From Chloroflexota bacterium (GTDB taxonomy: Bacteria > Chloroflexota > Dehalococcoidia > Lucifugimonadales > UBA3495), in the NCBI GenBank assembly GCA_002721995.1, contig PBMF01000018.1:34011-71586 (forward strand): a stretch of 37,576 bases of DNA. Reading direction: 5' to 3'. Position 1 is the stretch's first letter. The number at the start of each line of letters is the position of its first letter. Under the pieces are notes generated by a model. That model did no database searches. It worked only from the letters and a program-made list of their open reading frames with translations, and was not told the DNA's origin. The position numbers and the translations under genes are program-made. Positions 17,641 through 18,210 of this stretch are shown here, piece after piece.

Positions 17641-18210
17641 ATGGATCGAGTATCGGGAGAGTCGCCACGTCGAGCCACGGGTTCCATGAGTCACGTCATT
17701 GTGGTTGTTGTGATTACCGCGGCCCTATCCTTCCTGCTGGCATGCGGCGGTCCGAGCCAGGACACAGCTCCGGACTTTTCCCTGCCCGATTCCCGAGGTG
17801 GAGAAGTGGTTCTTGCCCAGTTGGTGCAAGAACACCGGTCAGTGGTCATCGTCTTCTACAGAGGGTTCTTTTGAGGCATATGCCGAGGCCAACTGGACGA
17901 GTTGGCAGATGCTTATCCCCAGTTCCGCGAATTGGGCACCGAGATCGTGGCCATCAGCACGGACGATGTAACTGACGCCAAACAGATGGCCTCGCTGGTG
18001 AACGCTCCCTTCCCGGTGCTGGCGGACCCCAGTTCCGAGACAGCTCTCGCATATGAGGTTTTTGACCTGTTGGATGACGGCGTGGCAGCTCCGGCGGTTT
18101 TCATAGTTGATGGCGACCAGGTTGTCCAATGGAAACAGATCGGCCAGGACATCGCCGACCGGCCAAGCCTCGGCGAGTTGCTCAGTGTGGTCCAAGGCCA
18201 GGGCAACTAG
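17641..18210 (+). CDS. Selenocysteine-containing peroxiredoxin-like lipoprotein (UGA read-through)
   Basis: 189 codons with one in-frame TGA at 17872-17874 (codon 78). Upstream: signal peptide ending SFLLAC, a perfect lipobox, then the AhpC/TSA start APDFSLPDSRGGEVVLAQL and VVIVFYRGFF. Downstream, in the same frame: GICRGQLDELADAYPQF and the rest of the thioredoxin fold (STDDVTDAKQ, FPVLADPSSETA, PAVFIVDGD). The TGA is exactly where AhpC/TSA proteins of the YRGxxCxxC type have the peroxidatic Cys, giving UxxC, and a SECIS-like hairpin follows. Start at 17641, or ATG 17686 which gives a shorter signal peptide. Probably an outer-face membrane-bound peroxidase. A nonsense mutation or base error is the alternative. 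Confidence 0.85.
17872..17912 (+). promoter_or_regulatory. UGA codon and candidate bacterial SECIS hairpin
   Basis: After the TGA (17872-17874), GCCAACT (17888-17894) and AGTTGGC (17900-17906) form a perfect 7-bp stem with apical loop GGACG. The loop begins 21 nt after the UGA and starts with GG, fitting the published bacterial SECIS pattern (loop 16-37 nt away, a G in the first two loop positions). GCAT/ATGC (17876-17879 with 17909-17912) can extend the base. It lies within the coding sequence, as bacterial SECIS elements do. Confidence 0.75.

Follow-up and report, generated by a model that had tools for sequence, protein, structure and literature searches.

The window analysed here is a stretch of 37,576 nucleotides from a Chloroflexota genome. 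It carries a redoxin gene at 17641..18210 on the forward strand (possible alternative start at 17686), which is open up to a TAG stop when one in-frame TGA is read through. The product of 189 amino acids contains the PF00578 AhpC-TSA domain (E = 6e-29), and its N-terminus resembles a lipoprotein signal ending in LLAC (…LSFLLAC-GG). The active site reads FYRGFF-U-GIC-RGQLDELA, a UxxC motif. Its putative Sec codon is the in-frame UGA at 17872..17874 (forward strand, U78), and the resolving Cys (C81) is encoded by the TGC at 17881..17883 on the same strand. The aligned codon was UGA in nearly all close homologues, more than 80 of which had UGA at this codon, and Cys in few; C81 was near-invariant. 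An AhpC/TSA domain and Sec at the first CxxC position (U78-x-x-C81) are together the features of a Prx-like UxxC selenoprotein. None of the curated NCBIfam models scored above its cut-off for the product, and the best was SelL_rel_redox, with 57 bits of the 120 required.

Immediately 3′ of the in-frame UGA, inside the coding region, lies a hairpin at 17888-17906 (forward strand), 14-32 nt after the UGA. Its 5′ arm GCCAACT (17888..17894) and 3′ arm AGTTGGC (17900..17906) form the perfect 7-bp stem described in the initial annotation, and the apical loop GGACG (17895..17899) begins after a spacing of 20 nt. The folding energy was −9.8 kcal/mol for the stem alone and −11.7 kcal/mol for a 31-nt region. 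The consensus for bacterial SECIS elements has a loop of 3-9 nt, a stem of 4-16 bp, a spacing of 16-37 nt, a minimum free energy of −7.5 kcal/mol or lower and a G among the two bases that open the loop, usually as G[G/U] (PMC13188914). All values of this copy, with its 5-nt loop and GG at the loop start, fall inside these limits. The redoxin clade differs from the consensus in having no conserved lower stem.

A further 4-bp outer pairing had also been proposed. Its letters GCAT/ATGC are present (17876-17879 and 17909-17912), but the pairing was not conserved, and 17872-17912 takes another fold at minimum energy. In the 83 homologues, 44.3% of cells were paired at these positions; slid controls gave 37-46%, and the outer pairing is thus probably due to chance. 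Folds of the window and of homologue L029 also showed a longer outer helix (GG.AUA.GC/GC.UAU.CC), which was rejected because it too did not exceed slid controls. A transcription terminator was rejected as well, as no U-run is present 3′ of the hairpin. Rfam gave no match within the window at gathering scores.

Judged from this one sequence, the hairpin departs only mildly from chance and is not very improbable. One to two of 200 dinucleotide shuffles folded as well as the hairpin region, and a hairpin qualifying under the same rules was found at 8.8% of random window positions. Among synonymous recodings of the redoxin gene, 27% kept all 7 pairs, and 11% did so with Watson-Crick pairs only. 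These recodings favor the explanation that the hairpin is a mere coding by-product of the repeated peptide QLxEL (CAR CTN NNN GAR YTG), with no function in the RNA. As the signal from one sequence is weak, evidence from the family is needed.

In searches of relatives, of the class, and of named genomes, well over 100 homologues shared the UGA at this codon; Cys homologues were far fewer. Most of the UGA homologues belong to Chloroflexota (Dehalococcoidia, SAR202 and others), and scattered ones are from Gemmatimonadota, Myxococcota, Acidobacteriota and Gammaproteobacteria. The closest showed 38-51% identity; the sequence past the UGA was conserved, and the DNA alignment downstream of it was gapless. 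A single viral_contigs scan turned up no relative. A pseudogene or sequencing error, in which the UGA is a true stop, has nothing in its favor but the in-frame stop itself and the missing intact selC of the assembly. We regard this as extremely unlikely, because about 80 distinct homologues share the same UGA, and their downstream sequence is conserved to near the C-terminus.

The hairpin is conserved in evolution at the level of the RNA. With columns numbered in nucleotides from the UGA (18 = 17889, 21 = 17892, 31 = 17902, 34 = 17905), the strongest covariation among 1770 column pairs (60 nt from the UGA, 56 sequences) was that of stem pair 18-34, with GC in 22, CG in 10, UA in 6 and AU in 3 sequences. 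Pair 21-31 ranked fifth in the same comparison and was 96% paired. Columns 18 and 21 lie in the 5′ arm, and their partners 34 and 31 in the 3′ arm. In the alignment of 83 UGA sequences, 92.1% of helix cells were paired, and four of the seven pairs varied on both sides. The covariation score of 0.272 was above every shuffle (0.127) and every slide (at most 0.078), and RNAalifold returned the same helix unprompted. On a protein tree built without the residues coded by the hairpin region, column 21 showed at least 26 changes, yet it was still paired in 81/83 sequences. On starred branches, eight independent pairs differed at this column, too few for significance by themselves; the partner followed in about four and never went in the opposite direction, and in the rest it was unchanged, as G-U allows. 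The compensatory changes that the initial annotation suggested looking for are therefore present in the UGA homologues.

The covariation, at silent sites and between codons, already stands against a coding by-product, and so does a codon null. Here the proteins were held fixed and the codons redrawn according to each gene's own usage in 3000 draws. The six-pair helix was observed in 59/83 sequences, whereas 7.5 ± 2.5 were expected and 17 was the maximum of all draws. The five-pair core was observed in 76/83 against 19.8 ± 3.7 expected. Codon use in QLxEL was skewed in the same region: the first Leu was CTC in 61% (background 18%), the second was TTG or CTG in 98% (background 51%), and Glu was GAG in 84% with GAA absent (background GAG 50% of Glu codons). 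The two neighboring Leu residues use different codons, in agreement with the needs of the stem. The earlier proposal that these bases are doubly constrained, by the RNA and by coding for GQLDELA, is thus borne out.

The loop showed its own conservation, which also argues against a by-product. The loop started with G[G/U] in 81/83 Sec homologues, in line with the G noted there in GGACG at the outset, and in 8/32 Cys homologues. Of the Sec homologues, 81/83 had V, G or D as the loop-coded residue. Most relatives have a 3-nt loop, GUN or GGN, closed by C24-G28. The present copy has G·G in place of this closing pair, which results in the 5-nt loop. It is one of six copies with a D residue (GAY, base 26 = A), and in all six the preceding Leu codon ends in G at base 24 (p = 2e-6). 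As A at base 26 always comes with G at base 24, the GG motif is kept by a shift of register. Four sequences have G-C at the closing pair 24-28, and in these E is replaced by Q or R.

Cys homologues gave the comparison by which the initial annotation would have been refuted, had the hairpin been equally present in them. It was essentially absent: the five-pair core was found in only 2/32, against the 76/83 of the Sec homologues, and one of the two was L060, the nearest Cys member to the protein of the window. Ten Cys homologues code for QLxxL and still do not form the helix (2-4 of 5 core pairs). The structure is therefore tied to UGA and not to Cys, being conserved in the former homologues and not needed in the latter. 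The tree has only six switches between Sec and Cys, and the contrast is partly confounded with phylogeny; it is thus weak on its own, and the covariation is the stronger evidence. With pairing far above the codon null, the by-product explanation is already refuted at the family level, and for the present copy we consider it very improbable.

The same genome encodes SelA, SelB and SelD, as expected for Sec decoding. SelB has the winged-helix domains SelB-wing_2 and wing_3. The SelD gene has an in-frame UGA of its own (CAGU), and 27 nt past it lies the loop, GUC, of a strong hairpin. A covariance model of the element searched against the genome had as its four best matches the UGA codons of four redoxin-like genes, the one in the window included. 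Because the model covers the UGA with its neighboring codons, and two of these four genes were in its training set, the matches are supporting and not independent.

An intact tRNA-Sec gene (selC) was not found in this assembly, which is 88.1% complete, and ARAGORN found no tRNA within the window. Most congeners have an intact gene, and given the completeness the missing selC is most simply an assembly gap. A match on contig C12 was rejected as the selC of this genome, since only its 3′ part aligns to intact tRNA-Sec genes; this part is fused to an unrelated 5′ half. Such 3′ fragments, one or more, were also observed beside the intact gene in genomes of the genus (L259 at C12:106-215, L255-L258; contigs G001:C27, G002:C31 and G006:C94). 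They are near-identical over about 45-90 nt and often 1-6 kb away, and the genome of the window has fragments only. They resemble fragments left behind by elements that integrate into selC; no integrase was identified.

The remnant on C12 (C12:106-190) is tRNA-like and has a UCA anticodon, which could suggest that an altered code or a suppressor tRNA assigns UGA to an ordinary amino acid without SelB. However, UGA works as a stop elsewhere in the genome, where TGA closes the response regulator ORF immediately upstream; SelA, SelB and SelD are encoded, and a hairpin of the SECIS type is linked to the UGA of the redoxin gene. The chance of such a reading is minute.

We conclude with high confidence, from comparison of sequences, that the hairpin is a bacterial SECIS which would direct Sec at UGA 17872-17874 and give a Prx-like Sec-x-x-Cys product. 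In the mRNA, SelB loaded with Sec-tRNA(UCA) and GTP would recognize the G[G/U] loop of the hairpin through its winged-helix end. The ribosome would then insert Sec at this UGA with no termination. The predicted product is a Prx-like thiol:disulfide oxidoreductase that would be exported and probably lipid-anchored, with Sec-x-x-Cys at its active site.

By its sequence features, the element belongs to a kind already known, the bacterial SECIS. In E. coli, the fdhF SECIS follows its UGA as an in-frame hairpin, and its loop contains G[G/U]. Both features are shared by the hairpin described here, which differs in its short stem without a bulged U. The protein likewise appears to be of a known kind, the Prx-like thiol:disulfide oxidoreductase selenoprotein family with PF00578 and UxxC (Zhang et al. 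2005, PMC1088965; Zhang and Gladyshev 2008, PMC2398784; reviewed in PMC13188914). It shares with this family the AhpC/TSA fold, Sec in a thioredoxin-like UxxC and a bacterial SECIS just past the UGA. Unlike that family, the clade studied here is mostly from Chloroflexota (Dehalococcoidia/SAR202 type) and lipoprotein-like, and nearly all its close members have Sec.

Several other UGA redoxins were observed in the lineage. Two or three of the genes often stand in tandem, and every copy then has a UGA and a hairpin of its own (L065 on G001:C40, L132, L138, L141, L035, L039, L115). A related subfamily, LRGFxUPFCRRHL (L073-L075, L078, L162, L164-L167, L169, L171-L174, L177), can have a shifted stem, such as CTCCGCC-AGTT-GGCGGAG in L074; here the SECIS register seems to have moved while the Sec position stayed. 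Two redoxin-like genes have two in-frame UGAs, as UxxU: L098 and L263 (C15:18143-18193, minus strand), and in the latter the first UGA is followed, at 25 nt, by a hairpin of 7 bp. Classical peroxiredoxins of the lineage have UGA at the TxxU position, for example FTGGU (L077, L088, L090, L093-L097, L099-L104). The lineage appears to be rich in selenoproteins.

The SECIS RNA, and not the enzyme, probably dictates part of the protein sequence in this clade. The need for G[G/U] at the loop start would limit the residue between QL and EL to V, G or D, pairing would fix the flanking Leu and Glu codons, and replacements would come as compensated pairs, such as QLxEL to QIxDL in L194 and QLxEL to QLDQL in L035 and L053. 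No description of so deep an RNA constraint on the QL[V/G/D]EL peptide was found in the papers searched, and this absence is not proof of novelty. Selenoproteins of this mostly Chloroflexota clade are little described in the same papers. Bacterial SECIS elements are usually called singly by a loose hairpin rule, which about 9% of random window positions also pass. In the redoxin family, whose sequences form a deep and alignable set, covariation at silent sites backs the element. The family would also be a clear example of enzyme residues constrained by an RNA signal.
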